The notes beneath the pieces were generated by a model. The model made no database searches and was not told the origin of the DNA. It saw only the letters and a program-made list of their open reading frames with translations. From contig NZ_FNJN01000002.1 in NCBI RefSeq assembly GCF_900104345.1, positions 558,001-622,000 of the forward strand: 64,000 bases of DNA, written 5' to 3'. Below are positions 6,531-62,964 of this stretch, in pieces. Positions within the stretch are counted from its first letter, which is position 1, and every line of letters starts with the position of its first letter. A program made the translations under genes and the position numbers. Source of the DNA: Microbacterium testaceum StLB037. Its GTDB lineage: Bacteria; Actinomycetota; Actinomycetes; Actinomycetales; Microbacteriaceae.

Positions 6531-6553
6531 CCCCTCATCCTGCCGCGCCACCC

Positions 6554-23346: not shown

Positions 23347-23374
23347 TCGGGTCTCTCCTGGCGAGGGAATGGAA

Positions 23375-23408
23375 GGGGCGGGCCGCATGCGTGCACGCGA
23401 CCCGCCCC
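23375..23408 (-). terminator. Intra-operon hairpin after the binding-protein gene
   Basis: GGGGCGGG (23375-23382) and CCCGCCCC (23401-23408) flank a partly self-complementary loop, 9 nt past the binding-protein stop and before the GH51 ribosome-binding site. No T-tract follows, so it is more likely an attenuator or RNA-stabilising hairpin than a full terminator. Confidence 0.5.
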
Positions 23409-23417
23409 GGGAACTTC

Positions 23418-28166: not shown

Positions 28167-31100
28167 ATGACGATGAAGTCAGCTCGACTGTTGTCGATGA
28201 CCTGCGCCGTGGCCCTCGCCGCCGGCGCGATCACCGCCACGGCCGCCGTGGCCCCCGCGCCCGCCGAGGCGGCGACCGCCGCCCCCGTGCGCATCACCCC
28301 CAACCCCGCCACCGCCTCCGAGAAGCCGTTCGAGGGGTGGGGCACGAGCCTCGTCTGGTTCGCCAACGCGACCGGGAACTACCCCGCCGACGTCCGACAG
28401 AAGCTGTTCGACGCCGTGTTCGGCGAAGACGGGCTCAACCTCAACATCGCGCGGTACAACATCGGCGGAGGCAACGCCTCCGACGTGCCGTCGTACCTGC
28501 GCCCCGGCGGAGCGGTCCCCGGCTTCTGGAACCCCGATCTCCCGGCGACGGACGCCAACGGCGCGATCACCTCGAACTACGCCGACCGCGCGCGCTACAA
28601 GGCGGCCTGGAATCCCGACGACCCGAACGCGTACGACTTCTCGAAGGACTCCGCCCAGCGCTGGTGGCTCGACGCCCTCAAGGACAAGGTCACCCACTGG
28701 GAGGCCTTCAGCAACTCCCCGCCCTACTTCCTCACCCAGAGCGGGTACGCCTCCGGAGGCATCAACAACGCTACGAGCGAGCAGCTCGCGCCAGCCGACA
28801 TGGACAAGTTCGCCGGCTACCTCGTGAACGTCGTCGACGAGCTCGAGAAGAAGCACGGCATCACCTTCGACACGATCGACCCGTTCAACGAGCCGAACAC
28901 GAACTACTGGCAGACCCAGATCCCCAACGGCGCGACTTGGCCGACGGGCGGTCGCCAGGAGGGCGCTCACATCGGGCCCCAGGCGCAGGATGCCATGGTC
29001 AAGGCGCTCGCCGCCCGCCTCGCGCAGCCGAGCACCACCACCGACGCCGTCATCTCGGCGATGGATGAGACCAACCCCGGCATCTTTGCCACCAACTGGA
29101 ACGCGTGGTCGGCTCAGTCCAAGAGCCTGGTCGACCAGCTGAACGTCCACACCTACGGCACCGACGGCCGGCAGGTCGTGCGCGACATCGCCAAGGCCGC
29201 GGACAAGCCGCTGTGGATGAGCGAGGTCGAGGGCAACTGGACCGCCCAGAACAAGGGCTTCGTCACCGACGACATCGAGAACGGCATCGGCATGGCCCAG
29301 CACATCGTGGGCGACCTGCGCGAGCTCGAACCCGACGCGTGGGTGTTCTGGCAGCCGGTCGAAGACCTCTACAACATGGAGAAGGTCGAGAAGCTCAACT
29401 GGGGCAGCGTCTTCATCGACTTCGACTGCAACGCCCAGGGGATGTCCGAGCGGCGCCTGAAGGACGGCGACGCCGACCCCTCGTGCCAGGTGCTGACGAA
29501 CGAGAAGTTCAACACGGTGCGCAACTTCACCCACTACATCGCGCCCGGCGACCACCTCATGGCGACCGACAATGCCCAGTCGACCGCGGCGATCGACGAA
29601 GACGGTCAGGGCGCGACGATCGTGCACGTCAACTCCGAGGCCTCGGCCCGCACCGTGCAGATCGACCTGCGCGACTTCGGTACCGTCGCACCCGGGGCGA
29701 CCGTGACCCCGATCGTCACGACCCAGTCGACGGCCGACGCGCCGACGCTCAACGCGCTCGCGAAGGGGCAGCCGGTCGCGGTGGACGCGGCATCCCGAAC
29801 CGCGACGCTCACCATCCCCGCCAAATCCGTCGTGACGTTCGAGATCGACGGTGTGTCGGGAGTGTCCCCCGACGCGGCGGCCTTCCGGGACGGACAGACC
29901 GTTCAGCTCTCCGGCCTGCAGAGCGGACTCGCGCTCGACGGCGCCTCGACGCTCGCCGTGCGCACCGCCGCGACGACCACCGACGCGGCTCGCGCCCAGT
30001 CGTGGACCGTTCGCACGATCGACGGGGCAGGCACGAACCGCCACCGCTTCACGCTTCAGAACGGGTCGGGGAAGTTCCTCGCCTCGAACGGCACCAACAC
30101 CGCCCTGGTGGATGCCGACCCGGCCGCGGCCGCGACGAATCCGGCGTTGCAATGGATGGCCTCGACGACCGACGGCACCTACTACTCCCTGTTGAACGTC
30201 GCGAGCGAACGCGTGCTCGACGTCAACGGGGCGAGCACCACCCCCGGTGCGTCCGTGGGCCTGTGGACCTCCAACGGCGGGGGGAACCAGCAGTGGCGCA
30301 TCGCCGGCACCGCGGTCATCGGCGCCGAGCCGGTCTCGGCGGCGACCGCCGTGGGCGTGAGCCCCACCCTGCCCGGCACCGTCACCCTGCGTTACGCCGG
30401 ACGGACGCTCCGCAGCGCCGCGGTGACCTGGCAGACGGACGGCGTGGACTTCTCGCGCCTGGGCACCGTCCAGGTGCGCGGCACCGGTACCGACCTGTTC
30501 GGGGCGCCCTTCGAGGCGACCGCGACGGTCGAGGTGGGTCCGTACACGGCCACGCGCCCGGCATCCGTCACCGTTCCCGCCGGGAGCGCGCTCGACGTGG
30601 TGAAGAGCCAAGCCGACGGCAGCGTCCAGGCCGAGCTCAGCCCCTCGGGCTCCGGATTCTGGGTGCCCGTGCAGTGGGCCTGGGACGGACTGACCGATGC
30701 GGCGTTCGCCGCGACGGGAACCGTCACCGTCACGGGCGTCGCGACGGGACCGAGTGGGGAGAAGCTCGACGCGCGACTGACGGTCATCGTCACCGCGGCG
30801 TCGGAGCGCAACGTTGCCCCGCAGAGCCAGCCGTCGGCGACCTTCACCGAGAGTTCGCAGTACGGCGTCGCCAACACGATCAACGGCAGCTCCACCGACA
30901 AGGGCTGGTCGAACTGGCGGTCGGGGACGAAGAACGACCAGGACACCCTGAGCTACGTGCTGAAGCAGCGCGAGACGCTGACGCACGTCGCGGTGCAGTT
31001 CTACCGTGACGGCAACACGCTGAGCTGGCCCACGACGATGCGCGTGGACCGTCGGGTCAGCGGCGGCTCGTGGATCGAGGGCGACCTGGTTCCGGTCCCC

Positions 31101-32051
31101 ACGCCCTCGAGCGGTGCGCCCCGGGTCGACGTCCCGGTCGTCGGTGCCGCCGACGAGGTCCGCGTGGTCATGAACGCCCGGTCGCAGACCCACATGATCG
31201 TGTCGGAGGTCGAGATCTTCGCCGCAGCCCCGGCTCCGGCCGGCATCGCCGACCTCGCCCGCTTGACGGTGGGCGATGAGCCGGTCGCAGGGTTCGCCGC
31301 GGACACGCTCGACTACACCGTCAGCTCGACCGGCGCGGCGTGGCCGACGCTGCACGCTCTGGCGGTCGACGAGGACGCGAGCGTCGTCGTGACCCAGCCC
31401 GGCGCCTCCGCGGGCGCCGCCACCGCCCGTGCGGCAGCCGTCGCCGCGGCGGACAACGTCGGGACCGTGCAGGTCACGGCCCCCGACGGCACCTCGCGCA
31501 CCTACTCGGTGACCGTGGATCGCGTCGTCGGCGTGACCTCTGTCGCTCTGACGGGTGAGGCCCGCGTGGGCTCCACCCTGCGGGCGGCCGCCGTGACCGA
31601 CCCGGCCGATGCCGGAACGGCGTTCGTGTGGATGCGCGACGGGGTCGCCATCGACGGCGCCACCGCCGACGGGTACGCGCTGACCGCGGCCGACGAGGGT
31701 CGACAGATCACCGTCCAGGTGACGGCGACGGCGGCCGGCTTCACTGAGGGTCGTGCCGTGTCGTCGGCGGTCGTTCCCACGGCTGCCGTCACGGACCCCG
31801 GCTCCGGCGGTGGCTCGGGCACTCCGGGCGCGGGAGCGGGCTCCGGATCGGGAGGATCGGGTGCCGGAGGCGGCGCCGGGTCACCGGCGGGCTCCGCGAA
31901 CAACGCCGCAGGGTCCTCGACGGCGAACGGTCGCGACCTGGCGACCACCGGTCAGAACACCGAGGGGGTGGCCGGGCTGGCCGTCGGTGCCCTCCTGCTG
32001 CTCCTGCTCGGTGCGGGTGCGGTCGTGCTGCGCCGCCGCTCTCGCGCGTGA
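28167..32051 (+). CDS. Secreted, wall-anchored GH30 enzyme (endo-beta-1,6-galactanase-like)
   Basis: A 1294-residue surface enzyme. Residues 1-36 form a Sec signal peptide (hydrophobic core, APAEAA cleavage region). The GH30 catalytic domain and its side sandwich span about 40-565, with acid/base E242 in DPFNEPNTNYW and probable nucleophile E353 in LWMSEVEGNW. After it come a ricin-type lectin domain (about 570-715, with LLNVASERVLDVNGAS and NQQWRI), Ig-like Big_4-type segments (720-875), an F5/8C-like discoidin domain (880-1020), a cadherin-like segment (1026-1115), an Ig-like repeat (1120-1205), and a Gly/Ser linker. The tail is LATTG (1258-1262), a membrane helix and RRRSRA, a class-E sortase signal. 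The catalytic domain resembles beta-1,6-galactanases; specificity is inferred. It is preceded by two LacI operators. Confidence 0.88.
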   Translation: MTMKSARLLSMTCAVALAAGAITATAAVAPAPAEAATAAPVRITPNPATASEKPFEGWGTSLVWFANATGNYPADVRQKLFDAVFGEDGLNLNIARYNIGGGNASDVPSYLRPGGAVPGFWNPDLPATDANGAITSNYADRARYKAAWNPDDPNAYDFSKDSAQRWWLDALKDKVTHWEAFSNSPPYFLTQSGYASGGINNATSEQLAPADMDKFAGYLVNVVDELEKKHGITFDTIDPFNEPNTNYWQTQIPNGATWPTGGRQEGAHIGPQAQDAMVKALAARLAQPSTTTDAVISAMDETNPGIFATNWNAWSAQSKSLVDQLNVHTYGTDGRQVVRDIAKAADKPLWMSEVEGNWTAQNKGFVTDDIENGIGMAQHIVGDLRELEPDAWVFWQPVEDLYNMEKVEKLNWGSVFIDFDCNAQGMSERRLKDGDADPSCQVLTNEKFNTVRNFTHYIAPGDHLMATDNAQSTAAIDEDGQGATIVHVNSEASARTVQIDLRDFGTVAPGATVTPIVTTQSTADAPTLNALAKGQPVAVDAASRTATLTIPAKSVVTFEIDGVSGVSPDAAAFRDGQTVQLSGLQSGLALDGASTLAVRTAATTTDAARAQSWTVRTIDGAGTNRHRFTLQNGSGKFLASNGTNTALVDADPAAAATNPALQWMASTTDGTYYSLLNVASERVLDVNGASTTPGASVGLWTSNGGGNQQWRIAGTAVIGAEPVSAATAVGVSPTLPGTVTLRYAGRTLRSAAVTWQTDGVDFSRLGTVQVRGTGTDLFGAPFEATATVEVGPYTATRPASVTVPAGSALDVVKSQADGSVQAELSPSGSGFWVPVQWAWDGLTDAAFAATGTVTVTGVATGPSGEKLDARLTVIVTAASERNVAPQSQPSATFTESSQYGVANTINGSSTDKGWSNWRSGTKNDQDTLSYVLKQRETLTHVAVQFYRDGNTLSWPTTMRVDRRVSGGSWIEGDLVPVPTPSSGAPRVDVPVVGAADEVRVVMNARSQTHMIVSEVEIFAAAPAPAGIADLARLTVGDEPVAGFAADTLDYTVSSTGAAWPTLHALAVDEDASVVVTQPGASAGAATARAAAVAAADNVGTVQVTAPDGTSRTYSVTVDRVVGVTSVALTGEARVGSTLRAAAVTDPADAGTAFVWMRDGVAIDGATADGYALTAADEGRQITVQVTATAAGFTEGRAVSSAVVPTAAVTDPGSGGGSGTPGAGAGSGSGGSGAGGGAGSPAGSANNAAGSSTANGRDLATTGQNTEGVAGLAVGALLLLLLGAGAVVLRRRSRA

Positions 32052-52052: not shown

Positions 52053-53588
52053 TTAGGCGTGGGCGCTCGAGAAGCGCTCGCGCAGCTCGGCTTTGATCAC
52101 CTTGCCCGACGCCGTGCGGGGGAGGGCACCGACGATCACGACGTCCTTCGGCAGCTTGTAGCGGGCCACCTGGCCGTCGAGGTGGGCGCGGACGGCGGCG
52201 GTGTCGACCTGCGCCCCGGGGGCGATGGTGACCACCGCGAGGGGCACCTCTCCCCAGCGATCGTCCGGGATGCCGATGACCGCGACCCCCGTGATGCCTG
52301 GGAGGTCCGCGATGAGCGACTCGACCTCGGCGGGGTAGATGTTCTCGCCACCCGAGATGATCATGTCCTTCGACCGACCGCACACGTACAGGTAACCGTC
52401 GGCGTCGAGGTAGCCGAGGTCGCCGGAGCGGAACCAGCCGTCGTCGGTCGTGGCAGCGCGGGTGGCGTCGTCGAGCCCGTGGTACCCGGCGAACACGTTC
52501 GGCCCACTGATCTGGATCTCGCCGACCTCTCCGGACGGGACCGGCAGCCCCTGCTCGTCGACCACGCGCACCTCGGTGAAGAAGTGCGGCAGCCCGACGC
52601 TGCCCTGCTTCGACCTCGTCATGTGCGAGCCCAGAGAGGTGGCGCCGGGGGAGGTCTCGGTCATGCCGTATCCCTGCGAGAACGACAATCCGCGGGCCTC
52701 CCACGCGCTCAGGATGCGGTCGGGAACGGCGGAGCCGCCGCAGGTGAGGGTGCGCAGACTCGAGACGTCCGACTCGCTCCACGCGGGATGGTCGGCCATC
52801 AGCTGGAAGGTCGTGGGGACGCCCGAGATCATCGTCACCCGGTGGCGTTCGACGAGGTCGAGAGCGCGCCCCGCTTCGAAGCCCTTCTCGAGCACGAGGG
52901 TCGCGCCTTTCAAGACCACCGGGAGGGCTCCCATCCCCAGGGACGCCACGTGGAACAGGGGCGAGATCATCAGCGCGACGTCGTCGGAGACCACGTCGTA
53001 GTCGATGACGGTGTTGACCGCGACCGAGGTGAGGTTGTCGTGCGTCAGCACGGCACCCTTCGGCCGCCCGGTGGTCCCCGAGGTGTAGACGATCGCAGCC
53101 GGGGTGGCGGGGTCGGCGACCGCGAGCGCGGGCGCCGGGCCCGCGGCATCCAGGAGGCGGGACAGGCCCGGCTCTCCGTTCCGACCGGACGCGCCGGTGC
53201 GGATGCGCGGCGGCGTCTGCTCGGGCGACGGCAACGCGTCGAGGCGATCGTCGAACGCGGGATCGTGCACGAGGGCGCGCGCGCCGCTGTCACGGAGGAC
53301 GTGAGCGATCTCAGGACCCGCGAGTCGGGTATTGACCGGCACGAAGACCGCGCCGATCCGCGTCGCGCCGAACAGCGCGATCAAGAAGTCGGGGCTGTTC
53401 TCGCCCAGGTACGCGACGGCGTCTCCGGCGCCGATCCCCCGCGAGGCGAGGACGGCCGAGAACGCCTCCGCGGCATCCGCGAGCTGGGCGTAGGTCAGGT
53501 GCTGGTTCTCGCCGTAGACGACGGCGGCCTTGTCGGGGGAGCGGAGACGCCGGCGGGGGAGCCAGGCTCCGAGACCTTGGGTTCTCAT
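52053..53588 (-). CDS. Acyl/aryl-CoA ligase (AMP-forming), feruloyl-CoA-synthetase-like context
   Basis: A 511-residue ANL-superfamily CoA ligase. The P-loop AIVYTSGTTGRPKGAVLTH, QGYGMTETSPG (A5), GWFRSGDLGYLDADGYLYVCGRSKD (hinge) and the catalytic Lys in PRTASGKVIKAEL are all present. It would activate a carboxylic acid to its CoA thioester. It is the last gene of the SDR-amidohydrolase-MaoC-ligase unit, 58 bp from MaoC. The operon resembles hydroxycinnamate (coumarate/ferulate) degradation clusters, so a phenylpropenoid acid is the inferred substrate. Confidence 0.88.
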   Translation of the reverse strand: MRTQGLGAWLPRRRLRSPDKAAVVYGENQHLTYAQLADAAEAFSAVLASRGIGAGDAVAYLGENSPDFLIALFGATRIGAVFVPVNTRLAGPEIAHVLRDSGARALVHDPAFDDRLDALPSPEQTPPRIRTGASGRNGEPGLSRLLDAAGPAPALAVADPATPAAIVYTSGTTGRPKGAVLTHDNLTSVAVNTVIDYDVVSDDVALMISPLFHVASLGMGALPVVLKGATLVLEKGFEAGRALDLVERHRVTMISGVPTTFQLMADHPAWSESDVSSLRTLTCGGSAVPDRILSAWEARGLSFSQGYGMTETSPGATSLGSHMTRSKQGSVGLPHFFTEVRVVDEQGLPVPSGEVGEIQISGPNVFAGYHGLDDATRAATTDDGWFRSGDLGYLDADGYLYVCGRSKDMIISGGENIYPAEVESLIADLPGITGVAVIGIPDDRWGEVPLAVVTIAPGAQVDTAAVRAHLDGQVARYKLPKDVVIVGALPRTASGKVIKAELRERFSSAHA

Positions 53589-53646
53589 GCGCGATCTCTT
53601 CGTCGAGGGTGCGGGATGGAGAAGGGAGGGGTCGGGCCCCTCCCCT

Positions 53647-54099
53647 TCAGGCGTAGAAGCGGTAGAGGCCGCGCGCGACCACGGCGGGCTTGCCGCCGCC
53701 GTCGACCTGGATCGTCTGGTCGACGGTGAGCTGGTAGCCGCCGGCGATCTCGGTGACCTCGGCGATGACGGCGTTCATGCGCACGCGGGCTCCGACCTTC
53801 ACCGGTGAGATGAACCGCACCTTGTCGAGGCCGTAATTGACCTTCGTGGTCACGCCGGTGACGTCGAGCAGCTCGGTCCAGAACGTCACCGCGAGCGAAA
53901 GACTCAAGAATCCGTGGGCGATGGCGCCGCCGAAGGGGCCGTCCTTCGCGCGCTCGGGATCGGTGTGAATCCACTGGTGGTCGTCGGTGGCGTCGGCGAA
54001 GAGGTTCACGCGGTCCTGCGTGACCTCGAGCCACTCCGACCAGCCGAGATCGGTGCCGGCGAGGCCGGCGATGTCGTCGTACGAGACGGTGGTGCTCAT
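53647..54099 (-). CDS. MaoC-like (R)-hydratase
   Basis: A 150-residue hot-dog-fold hydratase. The catalytic Asp and His lie in FADATDDHQWIHTDPERA, and GPFGGAIAHGFLSLSL is the following family motif. It would add water across an enoyl-CoA double bond, for example that of a hydroxycinnamoyl-CoA. Its ATG overlaps the amidohydrolase stop by 4 bp. Confidence 0.88.
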   Translation of the reverse strand: MSTTVSYDDIAGLAGTDLGWSEWLEVTQDRVNLFADATDDHQWIHTDPERAKDGPFGGAIAHGFLSLSLAVTFWTELLDVTGVTTKVNYGLDKVRFISPVKVGARVRMNAVIAEVTEIAGGYQLTVDQTIQVDGGGKPAVVARGLYRFYA

Positions 54100-55007
54100 G
54101 AGTGCTCCTTGGAGGGGGTGGTCAGGCCGAGCAGCCGCGCGGCGTTGTCGCGGACAATGCCGGGCATGACCTCGGGCTTGAGGGTGGTCTGCTCGACGTC
54201 GCGCAGCCAGCGGTCGGGCGTGAGCAGCGGGAAGTCGGATCCGAAGAGGACGCGGTCCCGCAGGAACGAGTTCGCGGCGCGAACGAGCTGCGCGGGGAAG
54301 TACTTCGGGCTCCAGCCCGACAGGTCGATCCAGGTGTTGTGCTTGTGCGTGGCCACCGAGATCGCTTCGTCTTGCCACGGCACCGAGGGGTGGGCCATGA
54401 TGATCTGCAGGTCACCGAAGTCGGCTGCGACGCCGTCGAGCAGCATGGGGTTCGACAGTCCCAGGCGCAGACCTCGGCCGCCCTTCATTCCCGCGCCGAT
54501 GCCCGTCTGTCCCGTGTGGAACAGGGCGACGACCCCCGCCGTCTGCAGCGTCTCGTACAGCGGGTAGTGCCGCTCGTCGCTCGGGTCGAATCTCTGCACG
54601 GTGGGGTGGAACTTGAACCCCCGCACGCCGGACTCCTCGATGAGGCGCTGAGCGCGCTCCACGGCATCCGCGCGGTTCGGGTCGACGGAGCCGAACGGGA
54701 TGAGCACGTCGTTGTGGCGAGCCGCGCCCGCGGCGATGTCGGCGCTCGAGAGGGGCGGGTGGTCGAGGTTGCCCTCGGCATCGACCGTGAAGACCACCGC
54801 GGCCATCGAGCGCTCGCGGTAGTACGCCGCGATGCTGTCGAGGTCGGGTCGCGCGGCGTCTGTCGCGAAGTAGCGACTCGCGGCCGCGGCGAGATCATCG
54901 GGAAGCGAGGAGTGCCCGTGCCCGTCGACCTCGACGTGCACGTGCACGTCGATCGCCGTCAGTGCCCCGACGTCGATGGCGGGTTCGTAGTGGGCCACGG
55001 TCGTCAC
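54096..55007 (-). CDS. Amidohydrolase-2 family protein, possible C-C hydrolase
   Basis: A 303-residue TIM-barrel metal-dependent hydrolase of the amidohydrolase-2 (decarboxylase-like) group. The metal-binding IDVHVHVEVDGHGH is near residue 19, VRGFKFHPTVQRF and IIMAHPSVPWQDE follow, and the catalytic Asp is in VLFGSDFPLLTPDRW. Relatives include salicylate-type decarboxylases. In the Rhodococcus coumarate pathway, as I recall it, an amidohydrolase cleaves the beta-ketoacyl-CoA side chain. GTG start, overlapping the SDR stop by 4 bp. Confidence 0.83.
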   Translation of the reverse strand: MTTVAHYEPAIDVGALTAIDVHVHVEVDGHGHSSLPDDLAAAASRYFATDAARPDLDSIAAYYRERSMAAVVFTVDAEGNLDHPPLSSADIAAGAARHNDVLIPFGSVDPNRADAVERAQRLIEESGVRGFKFHPTVQRFDPSDERHYPLYETLQTAGVVALFHTGQTGIGAGMKGGRGLRLGLSNPMLLDGVAADFGDLQIIMAHPSVPWQDEAISVATHKHNTWIDLSGWSPKYFPAQLVRAANSFLRDRVLFGSDFPLLTPDRWLRDVEQTTLKPEVMPGIVRDNAARLLGLTTPSKEHS

Positions 55008-55933
55008 GCGGTGGCAACGGGGCGCTGGAGCTCGACGGGGAGGGCCGGGAAGCGCTCGCCTACGCTCTGCAGGTCGCCGACGGCCTCGGCGAAGCCCGCG
55101 GCGAGGGCTTCGGCGGTCCAGCCGCCGTCGCGATAGACGGTGGCGACGGGCTCGGGGTGCGACCACAGCTGCAGGCGGTCACCGCCGATGCCGATCGCCT
55201 GGCCGCTCACCCCGGCTGCCGCGTCGGAGGCGAGGAAGGCGATGAGCCCCGCGACATCGTCCGAGGTGCCGAAACCCAGGTCGCGTCGGAAGAAGGCGGG
55301 CATGGGCTCTCCCGCTGCCTCCGCCTCGACGGCCGCGGCGAAGTAGGGCACCGTCGCGGTCATGGCGGTGGCGGCGACGGGGATGACCGCGTTGACGGCG
55401 ATCCCGGCCTTCTTGAGTTCGAGGGCCCAGGTGCGCACCATGCCGACGATTCCGGCCTTGGCCGCCGCGTAGTTCGTCTGGCCGAAGTTGCCGCGCTGAC
55501 CGGTGGGCGAGCCGATGCAGATGATCCGCCCGGCGATCTCGTTCTGCCGCATGTAGGTCGCCGCGGCGCGCACCGTGGTGAAGGTCCCTCGCAGGTGCAC
55601 GCCGATCACCGTGTCGAAGTCGTCGTCGCTCATCTTCCACAGCACGGTGTCGCGCAGGACGCCGGCGTTGGTGACGAGGATGTCGAGTCGGCCGTAGGCG
55701 TCGACGGCGGCGGCGACGAGGGCGTCGGCGGTCTCGGTGGGTCCGACCGGCGCGACCACTGCGACCGCCTGGCCGCCCGCATCGACGATGGTCTTCACCG
55801 CGGCGTCGGCGGTGGCGGCGTCCACGTCGTTGATGACGACGGCCGCCCCCTGGCGGGCGAGCTCCTGGGCGTAGGCGAGGCCTAGGCCGCGGCCCGAACC
55901 GGTGACGATGGCGACTTTGCCGGTGAGCGTCAT
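55004..55933 (-). CDS. Short-chain dehydrogenase/reductase (3-hydroxyacyl-CoA type)
   Basis: A 309-residue SDR. The NAD(P) motif VTGSGRGLGLAYA, the NAG motif ILVTNAGVLRD, and the catalytic Tyr/Lys in TNYAAAKAGI are intact, with Ser in CIGSPTGQ. The C-terminal extension (about residue 250 onward) resembles bacterial homologues of the peroxisomal multifunctional-enzyme dehydrogenase. It would oxidise a beta-hydroxyacyl-CoA made by the MaoC hydratase. ATG 55933 has AAGGAG upstream. First gene of its operon. Confidence 0.87.
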   Translation of the reverse strand: MTLTGKVAIVTGSGRGLGLAYAQELARQGAAVVINDVDAATADAAVKTIVDAGGQAVAVVAPVGPTETADALVAAAVDAYGRLDILVTNAGVLRDTVLWKMSDDDFDTVIGVHLRGTFTTVRAAATYMRQNEIAGRIICIGSPTGQRGNFGQTNYAAAKAGIVGMVRTWALELKKAGIAVNAVIPVAATAMTATVPYFAAAVEAEAAGEPMPAFFRRDLGFGTSDDVAGLIAFLASDAAAGVSGQAIGIGGDRLQLWSHPEPVATVYRDGGWTAEALAAGFAEAVGDLQSVGERFPALPVELQRPVATA

Positions 55934-55966
55934 GGTGACTCCTTCGATCGGTGACATCGTGGCATC

Positions 55967-55991
55967 CAATCGTTGAAAATGTCAATGATTG
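55967..55991. promoter_or_regulatory. MarR-type operator between SDR operon and marR
   Basis: CAATCGTTGA (55967-55976), 5 nt, TCAATGATTG (55982-55991) is an inverted repeat with one mismatch in ten positions. It sits in the 78-bp divergent gap, upstream of the marR -10 box TACACT (56000-56005). Confidence 0.75.
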
Positions 55992-56011
55992 TTCATCGCT
56001 ACACTTGCGGC

Positions 56012-56485
56012 ATGACCTCCGTGGCCCCCGACGATCCCTCGGGCTCGTCGCGCCTGGAGCACTCGCCCCTCGCCGACGACCTCGGCTTCCTCCTCGCGCG
56101 GGCCTCGGCCGTATCGCAGGCGGCGGCCAACGAGGCCCTCGCCGCGCACGAGCTCAAGGTGCGCTCCTACTCCGTCCTCGCGCTCGCGGTGACCGGCGGT
56201 CGGCCCTCGCAGCGTGAGCTCGCCGCCTTCCTGCGCCTGGATCCGAGTCAGGTGGTCGCCCTCATCGACGATCTCGAGCGTCGCGGTCTCGTCACGCGCG
56301 AGCCCGACCCGCGGGATCGGCGGGCCAACGTCGTGGCCGCCACGCTCGCCGGGCGTTCGCTCTACCGGCGCGCGCAGGCCGACGTCGAGGCGGGCGAACG
56401 TCGCGCTCACGCGGGGCTCTCGAGCGCCGACCGCGCCGAGTTGGCGCGCCTGCTGCGGGTGGTCGCCTTCCCCGGCGGGGAGTGA
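56012..56485 (+). CDS. MarR-family regulator of the CoA-ligase operon (probable)
   Basis: A 157-residue winged-helix MarR protein. The recognition region is QRELAAFLRLDPSQVVALIDDLERRG, with the wing TREPDPRDRRANVVAATLAG. It is divergent from the SDR operon across an inverted repeat. Coumarate-pathway repressors of this family respond to the CoA thioester, so that ligand is plausible here. ATG 56012 is 6 nt after TACACT, suggesting a leaderless mRNA. Confidence 0.87.
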   Translation: MTSVAPDDPSGSSRLEHSPLADDLGFLLARASAVSQAAANEALAAHELKVRSYSVLALAVTGGRPSQRELAAFLRLDPSQVVALIDDLERRGLVTREPDPRDRRANVVAATLAGRSLYRRAQADVEAGERRAHAGLSSADRAELARLLRVVAFPGGE

Positions 56486-56546
56486 CGACGCCACTTGCGA
56501 CGCATCCGAGCCGCCCCGCGCCCCGGGGCGACGCCATGCCCGACGC

Positions 56547-57134
56547 TCAGTCGCGCGGGTGCAGACGGTCGAGCAGGTCGAGGCCGTGGCGCGCCCAGGC
56601 GATCTCGCCCTCGGCGCGGTCGAGGAATCCCTCGTAGGTGAACACCTTGAACGCCACCACCGCGTCGGGGTCGTGGCGGGTGTCGGTTTCGAGCCGGCGC
56701 GCGAGGATCGGGTGGGAGCGCCTCCGGATGGCATCCAGCTGGGACTGCCATTGTGCGCGGCGCAGCTCGTACTGGGCGATGTGCTCGTGCAGGTGTCGGC
56801 GGGCGACGTCGGGATCGGCCCACTCGAAGTACGCGGCGCGCAGGTGCGCGGGGTCGCGTTCCCGCGCGTATTCGATGGGTTCCTCCATCCACGCCCGAAA
56901 GGCGTCGACCCCCTCGTCGGTGACGGTGTACTGCGTCTTCGTGGAGCTCGCCCCCCACGGGACCGCCTCGTCGCGCAGCAGCCCGTCGGCGACCATGCGC
57001 TTGAGCTCGGGGTAGATCTGCGAGTCGGGCGCGTGCCAGACGTGCCCGACCGACACGTGGAAGGCCTTGGCCAGGTCGTAACCGGTCATGGGGTGCGCGG
57101 TCAAGACGGCCAGCAGGGCGTACCGCAGGCTCAT
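56547..57134 (-). CDS. PadR-family regulator, divergent from vanAB
   Basis: A 195-residue PadR protein. Its winged helix is SLRYALLAVLTAHPMTGYDLAKAF, then SQIYPELKRMVADGLL and a YTVTDEGVDAFRAWM wing. The C-terminal domain is helical (HLHEHIAQYELRRAQW). PadR-type repressors (VanR of Corynebacterium) control vanillate demethylase genes, matching the divergent vanAB-like pair here. ATG 57134 has GAGGAG upstream. Confidence 0.88.
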   Translation of the reverse strand: MSLRYALLAVLTAHPMTGYDLAKAFHVSVGHVWHAPDSQIYPELKRMVADGLLRDEAVPWGASSTKTQYTVTDEGVDAFRAWMEEPIEYARERDPAHLRAAYFEWADPDVARRHLHEHIAQYELRRAQWQSQLDAIRRRSHPILARRLETDTRHDPDAVVAFKVFTYEGFLDRAEGEIAWARHGLDLLDRLHPRD

Positions 57135-57192
57135 CGGCGACTCCTCGGGGTGCTTGCGGATGCTCGGCATCCACCGTATCTTCTCGGCTATA

Positions 57193-57206
57193 ACTATCCC
57201 TATAGT
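57193..57206. promoter_or_regulatory. Candidate PadR operator upstream of vanA
   Basis: ACTATCCCTATAGT (57193-57206), with arms ACTAT/ATAGT, lies in the AT-rich middle of the 92-bp gap between padR and vanA. The surrounding TATAACTATCCCTATAGTGA may also contain promoter elements. Confidence 0.5.
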
Positions 57207-57226
57207 GAGTGGACGAGGGAGTTCCG

Positions 57227-58336
57227 ATGCAACAGACCGTGGCCGCCAAGCTGCTCGACCACCCGCGCAACGCCTGGTACGTCGCCGCGTGGGATCACGA
57301 GGTCGGACGCAAGAAGATCCTTTCGCGCACGGTCGCGGGCCGGCCCTTGGCGCTCTATCGGACCGAGGACGGTCGAGCCGTCGCCCTCGCCGACGCGTGC
57401 TGGCATCGCCTCGCACCGCTGTCGCAGGGCGCTCTGGTCGGCCCCGAAGACATCCGCTGCCCGTACCACGGCATCACCTACGACGCCCGGGGCCGCTGCA
57501 CCTCGATGCCCGCGCAGGAGACGATCAACCCGAGCGCCATCGTCCCCTCGTTCCCGGTCGTCGACCGATATCGCTACGTGTGGGTGTGGGTGGGCGACCC
57601 GGCGCTGGCCGACCCCGACCTCATCCCCGACATGCACCAGATGACGGATGCCGCCTGGACCGGCGACGGCCTGACGATCCACGCCCCGTGCAACTACCAG
57701 CTCGTCCTCGACAACCTGATGGACCTCACCCACGAGGAGTTCGTGCACTCGAGCAGCATCGGCCAGAAGGAGCTCAGCGAGAGCGAGTTCGTCACCAGCC
57801 ACACCGACACCACGGTGACGGTCGAGCGCTGGATGCACGACATCGAGGCCCCGCCTTTCTGGCTGAAGAACATGAGAGACAAGTTCCCCGGCTTCGAGGG
57901 GCGCGTCGACCGCTGGCAGATCATCCACTTCGAGGCGCCGTCCACCATCTGCATCGACGTCGGCGTCGCCAAGGCCGGCACGGGTGCGCCCGAGGGCGAC
58001 CGGTCGCAGGGGGTCAACGGCTACGTGATGAACACCATCACGCCCGAGACCGCGCGTTCGAGCCACTACTTCTGGTCGTTCCAGCGCAACTACCGCCTCG
58101 ACAGCCAGCTCATCACGACGCAACTGCGCGACGGCGTGCACGGGGTGTTCGGAGAAGACGAGGCGATGCTCGCCGCGCAGCGGGCCGCGATCGACGCCAA
58201 TCCCGATTACGAGTTCTACAGCCTGAACATCGACGCGGGCGGCATGTGGGTGCGCCGGATCCTCGAGCGGATGCTGCTCGCCGAGGGTCGCGATCACGCC
58301 CCGGCACCGCGTGCGGGCGCGCAGGTGGTGCACTGA
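57227..58336 (+). CDS. vanA: Rieske oxygenase, vanillate O-demethylase large subunit-like
   Basis: A 369-residue Rieske non-haem iron oxygenase. The [2Fe-2S] ligands are in ADACWHRLAPLS and IRCPYHGITYD (CxH...CxxH). The mononuclear-iron site is LDNLMDLTHEEFVHSS, with both His residues. PRNAWYVAAWDHEV and the overall length match VanA-type demethylases. It would convert vanillate to protocatechuate with formaldehyde release. ATG 57227 follows GAGGGAG; a GTG at 57209 is less likely. The precise methoxy-aromatic substrate is inferred. Confidence 0.88.
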   Translation: MQQTVAAKLLDHPRNAWYVAAWDHEVGRKKILSRTVAGRPLALYRTEDGRAVALADACWHRLAPLSQGALVGPEDIRCPYHGITYDARGRCTSMPAQETINPSAIVPSFPVVDRYRYVWVWVGDPALADPDLIPDMHQMTDAAWTGDGLTIHAPCNYQLVLDNLMDLTHEEFVHSSSIGQKELSESEFVTSHTDTTVTVERWMHDIEAPPFWLKNMRDKFPGFEGRVDRWQIIHFEAPSTICIDVGVAKAGTGAPEGDRSQGVNGYVMNTITPETARSSHYFWSFQRNYRLDSQLITTQLRDGVHGVFGEDEAMLAAQRAAIDANPDYEFYSLNIDAGGMWVRRILERMLLAEGRDHAPAPRAGAQVVH

Positions 58337-58337
58337 G

Positions 58338-59321
58338 GTGGCGGTCTCGCGCACCGAGGTCTGGCAGTACGGCACCGTCGCGGCATCCCGTGCCCTCACG
58401 CCCGAGATCCGCCGCATCGAGATCGACGTCGACCAGCCCGCGCCGGTGAGTCCCGGCGCACACGTCGACGTGCGTCTGACCATCGCGGGTGAGCGCGACC
58501 GCCGGTCGTACTCGATCGTGGATGCCACGGACGGCGGCCGCCGCATCGCCCTGAGCGTTTACACGTCGCCGGTGAGCCGCGGGGGCGCGGCGGTGATGAA
58601 CGCCCTCACGCCGGGGGACCGGCTGGAGCTGACCCAGCCGCTGAACGACTTCCCGCTCCGGCCCGGCGCCGACCGCTACGTGCTGATCGCCGGCGGCGTG
58701 GGCATCACCGCGATGGTGGGCATGGCCGCGCGTCTGCGCGACCGGCGGGCCGACTACCGGCTGCTCTACGCCGGTCGTAGTCGACCGCTGATGGCCTACG
58801 TCGACGACCTGCGCGAGGCGCACGGCGAGCGACTGCGGTTGCACGTGCGCGACGAGGGCACGTCGCTGTCGATCCCCGACCTCGTCGACGGCATCGCGGT
58901 GGGGACGGAGGTGTACGTCTGCGGGCCGATCCGCCTGATGGATGCCATCCGGCGGGAGTGGATGACGCAGGGGCGCCCCATCGCGGATCTTCGCATGGAG
59001 ACCTTCGGCAACAGCGGCTGGTTCGAGGCGCAGGAGTTCGTCGTCCGCGTGCCGGCGAGCGGCATCGAGGCGCGCGTCCGTCCGAATCAGTCGATGCTCG
59101 AGGCTCTCGAAGGCGCCGGCGCCGACATGATGTGGGACTGCCGCAAGGGGGAGTGCGGTCTCTGCGAGGTCCGCGTCGTCGGCCTCGCGGGCGACATCGA
59201 CCACCGGGACGTGTTCTACAGCGAGCGCCAGAAGGACGCCCGCTCGAAGATGTGCTGCTGCGTCTCGCGCGTCGTCGCACGGGACGGCGGCTCCGCCGTG
59301 GTGGAGATCGTCACGAGCTGA
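58338..59321 (+). CDS. vanB: Vanillate demethylase reductase subunit-like (FMN, [2Fe-2S])
   Basis: A 327-residue class IA oxygenase reductase. The flavin motif DRRSYSIVDA, the NAD loop LIAGGVGITAMVGMA and VYVCGPIRLMDAI come first. A C-terminal plant-type ferredoxin domain follows, with cysteines in DCRKGECGLCEV and SKMCCCVS. It passes NADH electrons to the Rieske subunit. The GTG start is 1 bp past the vanA stop, so the two subunits are translationally coupled. Confidence 0.9.
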   Translation: MAVSRTEVWQYGTVAASRALTPEIRRIEIDVDQPAPVSPGAHVDVRLTIAGERDRRSYSIVDATDGGRRIALSVYTSPVSRGGAAVMNALTPGDRLELTQPLNDFPLRPGADRYVLIAGGVGITAMVGMAARLRDRRADYRLLYAGRSRPLMAYVDDLREAHGERLRLHVRDEGTSLSIPDLVDGIAVGTEVYVCGPIRLMDAIRREWMTQGRPIADLRMETFGNSGWFEAQEFVVRVPASGIEARVRPNQSMLEALEGAGADMMWDCRKGECGLCEVRVVGLAGDIDHRDVFYSERQKDARSKMCCCVSRVVARDGGSAVVEIVTS

Positions 59322-59425: not shown

Positions 59426-59989
59426 TCAGTCGTCGAGGCGCGAGTGCTCGCCGAGGCGGTGCCAGGCGCGGTTGTGGTACACCAGCGCGGCTCCGGATTC
59501 GCCGGGCTCGAGGTCGCGTTCGACGTCGACCTGCAGGGCTTGAGCGGCGATGACCGTGGAGCCGCCGGCATCCATTCTGCTGACGACCTTGCACCGGAGC
59601 CACGCGCGCACGCCGTGGTAGACCGGCTCGCCGGTGGGCAGGCGCGACCACGTCGAGGTGTCGGCGAAGCGATCGAGGCCGCTGGTGGCCCCCGCCCGAG
59701 CGAGCGAGATGTCCTCCGCGTCGAGCAGGTGCACCACGATCGTGTCCGCCGCGATGATCGTGGGCGTCGCCGACGACAGCGCGGAGACCGAGAAGATCAG
59801 CAGCGGCGGGTCGGCGCTCACCGACGACACCGACGAGGCGGTGAGGGCGACGGGGCCGTTCTCGCCGAACGCGGTGATCACGGCGATGCCGCCGGGGTGG
59901 CCGCGGAAGGCCCTCTTGAAGTCGTCCGCCGAGACGGAGGTGCCGATGGCGGGGGTGCTCTCGGGGGCGCCGTGCGGAAGCGAAGTCAT
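59426..59989 (-). CDS. Flavin reductase-like domain protein
   Basis: A 187-residue split-barrel flavoprotein (FMN reductase/HpaC-like). DFKRAFRGHPGGIAVITAF, VALTASSVSSVSADPPLLIFSV and LVYHNRAWHRL are conserved segments. Such proteins supply reduced flavin to two-component monooxygenases or act alone. No oxygenase partner is adjacent apart from VanA, which has its own reductase. ATG 59989 is selected because the homologous region begins soon after. Confidence 0.82.
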   Translation of the reverse strand: MTSLPHGAPESTPAIGTSVSADDFKRAFRGHPGGIAVITAFGENGPVALTASSVSSVSADPPLLIFSVSALSSATPTIIAADTIVVHLLDAEDISLARAGATSGLDRFADTSTWSRLPTGEPVYHGVRAWLRCKVVSRMDAGGSTVIAAQALQVDVERDLEPGESGAALVYHNRAWHRLGEHSRLDD

Positions 59990-60236: not shown

Positions 60237-61220
60237 ATGAAGGCGAACAAGATCATCGCGGGCATCGCGCTCGTCGGCGCGATCGCGTTCACGGCCACCG
60301 GCTGCGCCGGAGCGGGCGGCGGCGGAAACGCCGGCGGCGGCAGCGGCGACAAGATCACGGTCGGCTTCGCCCAGACCGGTTCCGAGAGCGGATGGCGCAG
60401 CGCCAACACCGAGTCGATGAAGGAGGCGTTCAGCGAGGCCAACGGCTTCAACCTCGTCTTCAACGCGGCCGACAACAAGCCCGAGGCGCAGATCGCCGCC
60501 GTCCGCAGCTTCATCAACCAGGGCGTGGACGCGATCGTCCTCGCACCCATCGTGAGCGACGGCTGGGACGACGTCCTCAAGGAAGCCAAGGACGCCAACA
60601 TCCCCGTCATCCTCGAGGACCGCACGGTCTCTGCATCCGAGGACCTCTACGCCAGCTGGATCGGCCTCGACTTCAAGAAGGAGGGCGAGACCGCCGGCAA
60701 GTGGGTCGCCGACAACTTCGGCACGACGCCCACCAACATGGTCGTCCTCGAGGGCACCACCGGTTCGTCCGCCGCCACCGACCGCGCCACCGGCTTCAAC
60801 GACGCGATCAAGGGCACCGACATCAAGGTCCTCGACTCGCAGACCGGCAACTTCACCCGCGCCGACGGCAAGACGGTCATGGAGGGCTTCCTCCAGAAGT
60901 ACGGCTCGCAGATCAACCTGCTCTTCGCCCACAACGACGACATGGGCCTCGGCGCCCTCGAGGCGATCAAGGCCGCCGGCCTTAAGCCCGGCACCGACAT
61001 CAAGATCGTCACGATCGACGCGGTGAAGGACGGCATGACCGCCCTCTCGAACGGCGAGTTCAACTACATCGTCGAGTGCAACCCGCTCCTCGGTGAGAAG
61101 ACCGCCGAGGTCGTCAAGAAGGTCGTCGCCGGCGAGTCCGTCGACAAGAGCTACATCGTCGAGGACCAGGCGTTCGACCAGGAGCAGGCCAAGAAGGTCC
61201 TGGACAGCCGCCCCTACTGA
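60237..61220 (+). CDS. CUT2 ABC importer, YtfQ-like sugar-binding lipoprotein
   Basis: A 327-residue periplasmic-binding lipoprotein (lipobox FTATGCAGAG). The run FAQTGSESGWRSANTESM, then AAVRSFINQGVDAIVLAP, GWDDVLKEAKDANIPVILED and the hinge region FAHNDDMGLGALEAIKAAG closely follow E. coli YtfQ, which binds galactofuranose. That ligand assignment is an analogy; arabinofuranose or another furanose is possible. It heads the binding protein-ATPase-permease operon. Confidence 0.88.
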   Translation: MKANKIIAGIALVGAIAFTATGCAGAGGGGNAGGGSGDKITVGFAQTGSESGWRSANTESMKEAFSEANGFNLVFNAADNKPEAQIAAVRSFINQGVDAIVLAPIVSDGWDDVLKEAKDANIPVILEDRTVSASEDLYASWIGLDFKKEGETAGKWVADNFGTTPTNMVVLEGTTGSSAATDRATGFNDAIKGTDIKVLDSQTGNFTRADGKTVMEGFLQKYGSQINLLFAHNDDMGLGALEAIKAAGLKPGTDIKIVTIDAVKDGMTALSNGEFNYIVECNPLLGEKTAEVVKKVVAGESVDKSYIVEDQAFDQEQAKKVLDSRPY

Positions 61221-61356
61221 TCCGCAGGGATCCGTCGCCGACTCCCCTCGGCGACACCCCGTCCGATCGCCTCGGCATCGACGGAACATCCTCCCCGGCG
61301 TGCGGGGTCGGTATCCACCGGCCCCGCACGCTCCCGATCCGAGAAAGCGATCGACA

Positions 61357-62964
61357 ATGACATCCGAACGGGCCGCCGCGACGACCTCCGAACGGGCAGC
61401 CGTGGTGGAGATGCGCGGCATCAGCATCCAGTTCCCCGGCGTGAAGGCGCTCGACGGCGTCGACTTCACCCTCTACGCCGGCGAAGTCCACTCCCTCATG
61501 GGAGAGAACGGCGCCGGAAAGTCCACTCTCATCAAGGCCCTGACCGGCGTCTACGGGATCGACGACGGCGTCATCCGCGTCGAAGGGACCGAGCGACAGT
61601 TCCGGGCCACCGCCGATGCCCAGGCCGCGGGAATCGCCACCGTCTATCAAGAGGTCAACCTCTGCCAGAACCTCACCGTCGGTGAGAACGTCATGCTCGG
61701 CAACGAGATCCGACGCGCCGGCATGGTCGACTGGAAGGCCACGCACGCCGCGGCCGCCACCTACCTCGCCGAGCTGGGCGTGCACATCGACACCCGATCG
61801 ATCCTCGCCAGCCACTCGATCGCCGTGCAGCAGCTGGTCGCGATCAGCCGTGCCATGGTGGTCGACACGAAGGTGCTCGTGCTCGACGAACCCACCTCGA
61901 GCCTCGACCGCGGCGAGGTCGAGCAGCTGTTCGGCGTGGTCCGCGATCTGCGCGACCGCGGCGTGGCCATCCTCTTCGTCTCGCACTTCCTGGACCAGAT
62001 CTACGAGATCTCCGACCGCCTCACGGTGCTGCGCAACGGCACCCTGGTGGGGGAGTACCCCGTGGCGGAACTGGGTCGCGAACAGCTCGTGGCGAAGATG
62101 ATCGGCCGCGAGCTCGGAGAGCTGGATGCCATCTCGGCCAGCGCCGAACGCCCGATCGACCGCACCGGAACGCCGGTGCTGCGCACCCTCTCGCTCGGGC
62201 GGAAGAACGCCCTCGAGCCCGTGGACCTCGACGTCTACCCGGGCGAGGTCGTGGGGTTGGCCGGGCTCCTGGGTTCCGGCCGCACCGAGCTCGCCCGCCT
62301 CATCGCCGGTGCGGATCGTCCCGACGACGGCACCGTCCAGGTGTCGGGCTCCGGGGCGCGCACAGGGTCGCCGCGGCACGCTCTCGACCGCGGCATCGCG
62401 TTCTCGTCGGAGGACCGTCGCGCCGAGGGCATCGTGGGCGACCTGACCGTCGCCGAGAACATCGTGCTCGGCATCCAGGCGCGCCGCGGCGCCCTGCGCA
62501 AGATCAGCGCCGCCGAGAAGCAGGCCGTCGTCGAGGAGTACATCACGGCCCTCGGCGTGCGCCCCGCCGACCCCAACGCCCTCATCCGCAACCTCTCGGG
62601 CGGCAATCAGCAGAAGGTGCTCCTGGCGCGCTGGCTGGCGACCGCTCCCGAGCTGCTCATCCTCGACGAGCCCACGCGCGGCATCGACGTCGGCGCGAAG
62701 GCCGACATCCAGCGCAAGGTCGCCGAGCTCGCCGAGAAGGGCCTCGCGGTCATCTTCATCTCGTCCGAGCTCGAAGAAGTGCTGCGCCTCGCGCAGCGCG
62801 TGGCCGTTCTGCGCGACCGTCGTAAGATCGGCGAACTGGCCACCCGCGACGTCGACCTCGACGCGCTCGTGGCCTACATCGCCGAGGGGCAGCCCGAATC
62901 GGCCGCAGCCGCGTCACACACCGCACCCGAGACACTGTCGTCCGATCGGGAGAAGATCGCATGA
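61357..62964 (+). CDS. CUT2 ABC importer, duplicated ATPase (YtfR-like)
   Basis: A 535-residue protein with two nucleotide-binding domains. The first (about 15-250) has a good Walker A, GENGAGKST, a degenerate signature (SIAVQQLVAISRA), and Walker B VLVLDEPTSSLD. The second (about 265-515) has a degenerate Walker A (GLLGSGRTEL), with signature NLSGGNQQKVLLARWLA and LLILDEPTRGIDVG. This asymmetry is normal for RbsA/AraG/YtfR proteins. Its stop overlaps the permease ATG by 4 bp. Confidence 0.94.
   Translation: MTSERAAATTSERAAVVEMRGISIQFPGVKALDGVDFTLYAGEVHSLMGENGAGKSTLIKALTGVYGIDDGVIRVEGTERQFRATADAQAAGIATVYQEVNLCQNLTVGENVMLGNEIRRAGMVDWKATHAAAATYLAELGVHIDTRSILASHSIAVQQLVAISRAMVVDTKVLVLDEPTSSLDRGEVEQLFGVVRDLRDRGVAILFVSHFLDQIYEISDRLTVLRNGTLVGEYPVAELGREQLVAKMIGRELGELDAISASAERPIDRTGTPVLRTLSLGRKNALEPVDLDVYPGEVVGLAGLLGSGRTELARLIAGADRPDDGTVQVSGSGARTGSPRHALDRGIAFSSEDRRAEGIVGDLTVAENIVLGIQARRGALRKISAAEKQAVVEEYITALGVRPADPNALIRNLSGGNQQKVLLARWLATAPELLILDEPTRGIDVGAKADIQRKVAELAEKGLAVIFISSELEEVLRLAQRVAVLRDRRKIGELATRDVDLDALVAYIAEGQPESAAAASHTAPETLSSDREKIA

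Follow-up and report, generated by a model that had tools for sequence, protein, structure and literature searches.

A predicted cou-type hydroxycinnamate operon and adjoining predicted vanillate demethylase module in Microbacterium testaceum StLB037

Introduction

The closest described counterparts of the plant phenolic acid island analyzed here come from Rhodococcus and Corynebacterium glutamicum. The island is located in a 64,000-nucleotide stretch of the Microbacterium testaceum StLB037 genome (contig NZ_FNJN01000002.1, positions 558,001–622,000), hereafter called the window, whose own numbering is used throughout; the source genome comprises 3.47 Mb in 12 contigs.

The coenzyme A (CoA)-dependent cou pathway has been described in strain RHA1 (PMC4737184), and a further route, phd, in C. 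glutamicum (PMC5479773). Structures of the RHA1 repressor CouR are available without ligand (3FM5) and with p-coumaroyl-CoA (5CYV); H117 bonds the phenol, which is also contacted by D10, while Arg36 and Arg38 provide contacts with the CoA phosphate and with DNA (PMC4737184). The CouR box (ATTGA-5 bp-TCAAT) is an inverted repeat that overlaps the −35 boxes, and operators were reported at three sites: couN/couR, couT and couH (PMC4737184). For vanillate, the known systems include VanR of C. glutamicum (PMC7090077, PMC8358305), solved with vanillic acid (6LG2), in which Y103, R148 and Y168 make the polar contacts with the ligand (PMC7090077), and the type III VanAB of Rhodococcus ruber R1, in which VanA is 36% identical to that of RHA1, the two being called types III and II, respectively (PMC9867520).

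Results

Genetic organization of the island

The analyzed region contains a tightly packed couN-couO-couM-couL operon, a divergent couR gene and an adjoining vanAB pair with a PadR-type regulator gene. All the functions named in the original prediction, i.e. CoA ligase, MaoC protein, short-chain dehydrogenase/reductase (SDR), amidohydrolase, MarR and PadR regulators and VanAB, are present. It is very probable that the island encodes a cou-type, CoA-dependent and β-oxidation-like pathway for the side chain of hydroxycinnamates, coupled to a vanillate demethylase module.

The four enzyme genes occupy positions 52053–55933 (minus strand) in the order SDR-amidohydrolase-MaoC-ligase, and all four cou enzyme classes are therefore found within one cluster. 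The first gene, couN (55004–55933), encodes a predicted 3-hydroxyacyl-CoA dehydrogenase of 309 aa (Pfam adh_short). It is followed by couO (54096–55007; GTG start), encoding a predicted metal-dependent hydrolase of 303 aa (Amidohydro_2), couM (53647–54099), encoding a predicted MaoC-type enoyl-CoA hydratase of 150 aa (MaoC_dehydratas), and couL (52053–53588), encoding an aryl-CoA ligase-like protein of 511 aa (AMP-binding). Since couN/couO and couO/couM each overlap by 4 bases, and only 58 bp separate couM from couL, the four genes are likely to form a single operon. On the opposite strand, couR (56012–56485) encodes a MarR-type repressor of 157 aa, a predicted sensor of hydroxycinnamoyl-CoA. 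Beyond it lie the PadR-type gene (56547–57134, minus strand; 195 aa), vanA (57209–58336, plus strand), encoding the predicted oxygenase of a vanillate O-demethylase (Pfam VanA_C, Rieske), and vanB (58311–59321, plus strand), encoding its predicted FAD/2Fe-2S reductase (FAD_binding_6, NAD_binding_1, Fer2).

Conservation of the cou block

The Rhodococcus reference was cluster L075 of R. opacus; its CouR and the RHA1 CouR stretch share 99% identity. The window proteins are 67% (CouN), 61% (CouO), 54% (CouM) and 45% (CouR, an RHA1-type protein in L075) identical to their counterparts in this cluster. The originally proposed correspondence with the Rhodococcus cou genes is thus borne out at the levels of protein sequence, gene order and operator (see below), and the likeness to CouLMNOR proved much looser only for the ligase (38%; see Discussion).

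The block is conserved in other bacteria. Among relatives, 34 cou-related regions were collected, and couN, couO and a divergent couR occur together in 24 of them. Scanning named genomes with CouR-based patterns yielded 173 loci, of which 80 were kept: 70 contain couN, couO and couR, with couN divergent from couR in 69 of these 70, and 64 of the 80 have matches to all five genes (the ligase match need not be an orthologue). Such conservation indicates that the cou block is not a chance grouping.

Four relatives carry a second cou-like operon (L064, L065, L066 and L067), which differs in gene order and encodes a very unlike ligase; its products show 58–62% (CouO), 59–65% (SDR) and 37–46% (MaoC) identity with those of the window. 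No CouR-like box with at most one mismatch was detected in three of these regions, and in L067 there is a single match, 0.7 kb past the MaoC gene. The second operons may serve another aryl or acyl substrate.

Residues H22, H24, H164, H206 and D258 of CouO are invariant in the final alignment of 15 rows (23 rows at first); by analogy with the amidohydrolase family, they would be the metal ligands. The predicted model of CouO (mean pLDDT, the per-residue model confidence, 88.2) has a metal-dependent TIM-barrel fold, and its structural matches are headed by 3irs (Z 27.5), followed by dihydroxybenzoate and ACMSD-type decarboxylases (Z ~20–23).

The CouR-like repressor and its predicted box

The best solved relatives of the MarR-type protein are the two RHA1 CouR structures, 3FM5 and 5CYV (100 bits), the next solved MarR protein scoring 43 bits. 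At the ligand-contact positions, as named in PMC4737184, the window protein retains D10, G12, F13, N27, V37, R38, Y40, S41 and V113, and it also retains the predicted base-reading residues D65, S67 and Q68. Substitutions were found at S16 (Ala), V22 (Ser), L23 (Gln), V26 (Ala), R36 (Lys), M62 (Leu) and H117 (Glu). Of the Arg36/Arg38 pair, therefore, R38 is kept and R36 is replaced by a residue that is likewise positively charged. Glu at position 117 occurs in 13 of the 15 relatives of alignment A1, composed of loci found through CouO and thus free of the bias of the CouR scan, whose patterns included R36/R38 and D65/S67/Q68 and so bias the counts of these residues in the 80 named loci. In view of the pocket substitutions, especially H117 to Glu, the phenol-facing end of the pocket may differ from that of RHA1 CouR, and the ligand preference may be shifted.

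The sequence GTTGA-AAATG-TCAAT (55972–55986), located between the divergent starts of couN and couR, is one mismatch away from the RHA1 box. The pattern RTTGA-N5-TCAAY has one site in the whole 3.47-Mb genome, at the cou operon, and the reversed control pattern has none. The box was then counted in 25 couN/couR gaps, those of the window and 24 relatives, which are kin and hence not 25 independent cases. A box with at most one mismatch is present in 24 of them (shuffled gaps: mean 0.13, maximum 2), and all 25 contain one with at most two mismatches (shuffled gaps: mean 1.56, maximum 6). Excluded from this count were the 10 of the 34 regions with no divergent couR beside couN (L042, L048, L056, L060–L062 and L064–L067); in two of these, L042 and L048, a box with one mismatch immediately precedes couN. 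The pattern was checked on L075, where exactly three perfect boxes are present, equal to the number of operators reported for RHA1.

The predicted vanillate module

The PadR-type protein is most similar, among solved structures, to 6LG2 and 5Z7B (the latter identified by its PDB label), with 194 bits for these and 57 bits for the next relative, AphA. It shares 95 of 191 residues with 6LG2 and retains Y103, R148 and Y168, i.e. all three polar vanillate contacts of that structure; we predict that it is a VanR-like sensor of vanillate.

A predicted VanR operator, the imperfect inverted repeat TATAACTATCCCTATAGTGAG, spans positions 57189–57209. In 10 aligned padR-vanA gaps inspected by eye, those of Rhodococcus as well as of relatives show similar AACTAT/ATAG repeats, although a strict inverted-repeat test of the window gap did not list the 57189–57209 repeat. 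Because the GTG codon at 57209 overlaps this putative operator, vanA more likely starts with the ATG at 57227.

The window VanA is the only VanA_C match in the genome. Its closest relatives in a plasmid collection are proteins of R. ruber (75.5% identity), R. rhodochrous (74.4%) and R. qingshengii (73.5%), followed by an alpha-proteobacterial protein (59.0%), and VanB is 54.6% identical to the VanB neighbouring the R. ruber VanA. In the covered stretches of 18 of the 80 named loci there is a vanA match, more than 60% identical in five cases (one of them a fragment at a contig end) and at most 45% identical in the other 13. Nine of these 13 were included in a 20-row VanA tree, where they form a second clade. 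The window protein groups with three Rhodococcus rows (the R. ruber clade), with proteobacterial rows next outside, and stands apart from the clade of Rhodococcoides fascians and Geodermatophilaceae, to which it is 36–40% identical. VanA may accordingly be described as type III-like, a label that rests on agreement with the published 36% figure and on the VanA of R. ruber MSA14 standing in for the R1 and RHA1 sequences.

Taken with the VanR-like PadR, these results support the assignment of PadR-VanAB as a vanillate demethylation module, as had been proposed for the neighbouring vanAB, with the qualification that VanA is of the R. ruber-like kind and shares only ~37% identity with the group that includes the R. 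fascians protein.

Association of the cou and van genes

A total of 148 genomes, including the source genome, were searched. A couO match (E ≤ 1e-20) was found in 37 of them. VanA proteins at least 77% identical to that of the window are encoded in 10 genomes, all 10 of which have couO; the distance between the two genes is within 20 kb in nine genomes and within 4 kb in six (three of the 13 VanA genomes, with 31–38% identity, were left out of this count). The probabilities calculated for this proximity take no account of kinship. The arrangement varies: van lies beyond couR (window, L034 and L035), on the couL side (L037) or, inverted, beside couR (L050). Members of the second VanA clade are likewise found near cou, in Geodermatophilaceae and R. 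fascians. Such repeated clustering of cou and van is good evidence of shared function.

Actinobacterial-type cou loci are also present in records labelled as Bacillus sp. AZ43 (L090; label unverified) and as an Acidobacteria metagenome-assembled genome (L138). The L090 VanA nests among those of Geodermatophilaceae, and the taxon labels of both records are probably wrong.

A gap of more than 900 bp between couO and couM, absent from the window, was observed in 14 of 26 regions. The single insert whose family was tested (L054:9243–10448) encodes an acyl-CoA dehydrogenase, which could admit saturated phenylpropanoids to the operon. The insert is lacking in all eight van-near loci and in 5 of 19 others (Fisher 0.0006). 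Nevertheless, the tree provides only one or three independent pairs, so that the association has no significance once kinship is counted and is a hint; a split into cou+van and cou+acyl-CoA-dehydrogenase versions is possible.

A wider proposal is put forward tentatively, at somewhat less than even odds. The island would be a two-sensor feed-forward unit, with CouR responding to aryl-CoA and VanR to vanillate, and two distantly related vanAB lineages would have been separately placed beside cou: one of the R. ruber-like type III, found in Microbacterium in three different arrangements, and another, with a VanA ~37% identical to it, in Geodermatophilaceae and Rhodococcoides fascians. Genomes would then split into those with cou and van, preferring ferulate, and those with cou and an acyl-CoA dehydrogenase, preferring saturated phenylpropanoids.

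Downstream genes and gene neighbourhood

Elsewhere in the genome there are two adjacent intradiol dioxygenase matches, one with the N-terminal domain of the protocatechuate 3,4-dioxygenase beta subunit, followed by genes for a lyase and an alpha/beta hydrolase, with a PobA-like flavoprotein gene close by. A gene for the protocatechuate 3,4-dioxygenase beta subunit (L039:4644–5504) lies ~1.4 kb from the cou operon in another member of the genus, an arrangement that links cou directly to the ring-cleavage step.

The next gene after vanB encodes a stand-alone flavin reductase (Flavin_Reduct; 59426–59989, minus strand). It is also found beside vanB in L034 (99% conserved) and L035 (95%); it was not found in the 20 kb of an M. 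testaceum locus (L148) and was rejected as a part of the unit. Right after the island (60237–62964, plus strand) are genes for a binding protein (Peripla_BP_4) and for an ABC ATPase containing two ATPase stretches, resembling a sugar-type importer.

A tie between the island and a region with glycoside hydrolase (GH) genes, suggested in the original prediction on the grounds that ferulate often esterifies arabinose in plant walls, was not borne out. The genes in question, for a protein with a GH51-type C-terminal domain (21826–23475) and a GH30_2 protein of 1294 aa with ricin-type lectin and Ig-like domains (28167–32051), lie at a distance of 20–30 kb, and the cou operon has the only strict CouR box in the genome. 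One-mismatch matches at 28875 and 29385 fall within the GH30 coding sequence and look like chance. A carboxylesterase gene (5067–6551) possibly encodes a feruloyl esterase; no tie to the island was found.

Discussion

Predicted pathway and its control

The reactions, substrates, promoters and repressor behaviour proposed below are inferred from protein families, synteny, operator sequences, residue conservation and downstream genes. CouL would activate ferulate or p-coumarate to the aryl-CoA ester, which the MaoC protein would hydrate; the SDR would oxidize the β-hydroxyl, and the amidohydrolase would cleave the C-C bond of the resulting β-ketoacyl-CoA to release 4-hydroxybenzoate or vanillate together with acetyl-CoA. 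CouR is predicted to shut the divergent couN and couR promoters through the single box, which on the couN strand overlaps a TTGACA-like −35 sequence; repression would last until the DNA-binding face of CouR is masked by the aryl-CoA ester. Vanillate would then relieve repression by the PadR/VanR protein, VanAB would convert it into protocatechuate, and 4-hydroxybenzoate would reach the same compound through a PobA-like hydroxylase; the pca genes of the genome are expected to open the protocatechuate ring. Two sensors in series would thus control the breakdown of ferulic and coumaric acids. Of the pathway originally proposed, the cou set and the vanillate module stand, orthology of the ligase has to be qualified and the GH51/GH30 connection is dropped.

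Several observations weigh against this scheme. Loose matches to the CouR box across the whole window are no more than chance: 3 sites with at most two mismatches (3.04 expected), and 4 sites no more than one mismatch away from the RTTGA form (1.40 expected). The case for the box rests on its position, its strict genome-wide rarity and its conservation. The island contains no transporter gene, and the best aromatic-acid symporter elsewhere (TIGR00895) scores 262 bits against a cut-off of 418.55; as none of 14 control genomes passes this cut-off, the latter result says little. VanAB would release formaldehyde, yet no mycothiol-dependent formaldehyde dehydrogenase above the cut-off was detected in the genome (TIGR03451; best score 203.5 of 512.9, with 1 of 14 controls passing). 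The PobA-like flavoprotein (394 bits) is below its curated cut-off (538.7). To these points are added the Glu and Lys found at CouR positions 117 and 36, the uncertain identity of the ligase and the broad activity of a similar enzyme set, which bear on the alternatives considered next.

It is conceivable, though unlikely, that the Rieske pair acts mainly on a different methoxyarene (3-methoxybenzoate or syringate, for example) and stands beside cou by chance, which would be compatible with the proposed role of the cou operon itself. The best solved relative of VanA is dicamba O-demethylase (190 bits), and the lesser substrates of the R. ruber R1 enzyme include 3-methoxybenzoate, 5-methoxysalicylate and syringate; on the other hand, vanillate is among the substrates of that enzyme in resting cells (PMC9867520). 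The vanillate contacts retained by the PadR protein and the proximity of VanA to couO in nine of 10 genomes speak for vanillate. In addition, no gentisate 1,2-dioxygenase match was found in the genome, whereas four controls, including C. glutamicum, do match, all of them below the cut-off.

A quite improbable alternative is that hydroxycinnamates are side substrates of the four enzymes, which would serve mainly some other aryl-propenoate, for instance a piperate-like acid or a cinnamate bearing methoxy or methylenedioxy groups. The cou-like PipUVWX set of R. ruber no. 14 serves piperate and also acts on fatty enoates, but it is more active on hydroxycinnamates, ferulate among them (PMC12753220). 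The changes at H117 and R36 in the CouR pocket would fit such a shift, while D10, which contacts the phenol, is retained, and a VanR-like protein with three vanillate contacts points to vanillate and hence to ferulate. The two nearest solved relatives of the ligase are near-tied: 8weu, labelled "Fatty-acyl-CoA synthase" (465 bits), and 8wev, with the PDB label "Feruloyl-CoA Synthetase" (462.5 bits), the latter speaking against this alternative; the next scores 338 bits. The window ligase just exceeds the cut-off of the NCBIfam long-chain-fatty-acid--CoA ligase subfamily (477.2 bits versus 476), and its substrate could consequently not be assigned from this protein by itself. Moreover, its nearest counterpart in the R. 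opacus cluster shows only 38% identity and is encoded ~6 kb away, so that couL may not be a strict orthologue of the Rhodococcus gene.

It is hardly credible that the four genes form a set for general acyl-CoA degradation or for that of steroid side chains: every enzyme class is generic, the ligase has the fatty-acid affinities given above, and the nearest solved relatives of the MaoC protein and the SDR are Rv0130 and a (3R)-hydroxyacyl-CoA dehydrogenase, respectively, but the cou route is favoured by the identity of CouR and its operator, by the conserved divergent synteny and by the presence of an amidohydrolase rather than a thiolase.

Comparison with known systems

The preferred assignment, a cou-type hydroxycinnamate pathway coupled to vanillate demethylation, makes the island a well-supported but ordinary find, in which every part belongs to a described family. 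No description of the island in Microbacterium was found among the open-licence papers searched. Mildly new are the single strict operator, the changes in the CouR pocket, the repeated placement of unlike vanAB pairs beside cou and the possible cou+van/cou+acyl-CoA-dehydrogenase split. Although no new mechanism is involved, the locus illustrates the repeated clustering of demethylase genes with a side-chain pathway, and as a compact, predicted ferulate-to-protocatechuate unit it may be of use in lignin conversion.

With PipUVWX the island shares a β-oxidation-like enzyme set, called similar to hydroxycinnamate enzymes by its authors (PMC12753220); PipUVWX is located in a 48-gene piperine cluster. 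Similarity to the R. ruber type III vanillate O-demethylase includes VanA (75.5% to that of strain MSA14), the divergent PadR gene and the vanAB order. The MSA14 record has the PadR-VanA-VanB order of the window followed by a major facilitator superfamily (MFS) gene, but it has no annotated cou-type gene in 17 kb, whereas in the window van adjoins cou. The C. glutamicum vanR-vanABK locus likewise has a PadR protein with vanillate-contacting residues encoded beside vanAB; in the window, however, there is no vanK-like gene after vanB, where the flavin reductase gene is found on the opposite strand.

The RHA1 cou cluster consists of couN, couO, couM, couL, couR, couT and couH. The M. testaceum genome differs from it in having one strict operator instead of three, a couL gene placed directly in the operon (38% identity) and a CouR with the R36K and H117E changes. 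The R. opacus cluster also contains open reading frames resembling MFS and acyl-CoA dehydrogenase genes (recognized by eye), which are not among the neighbours in the window. Despite these differences, the two systems have in common the four enzyme functions, the divergent MarR gene, the sequence of the operator and its position between couN and couR, and an amidohydrolase as the last step (compared via R. opacus). The pathway characterized in Rhodococcus is thereby extended to Microbacterium with operator-level evidence.

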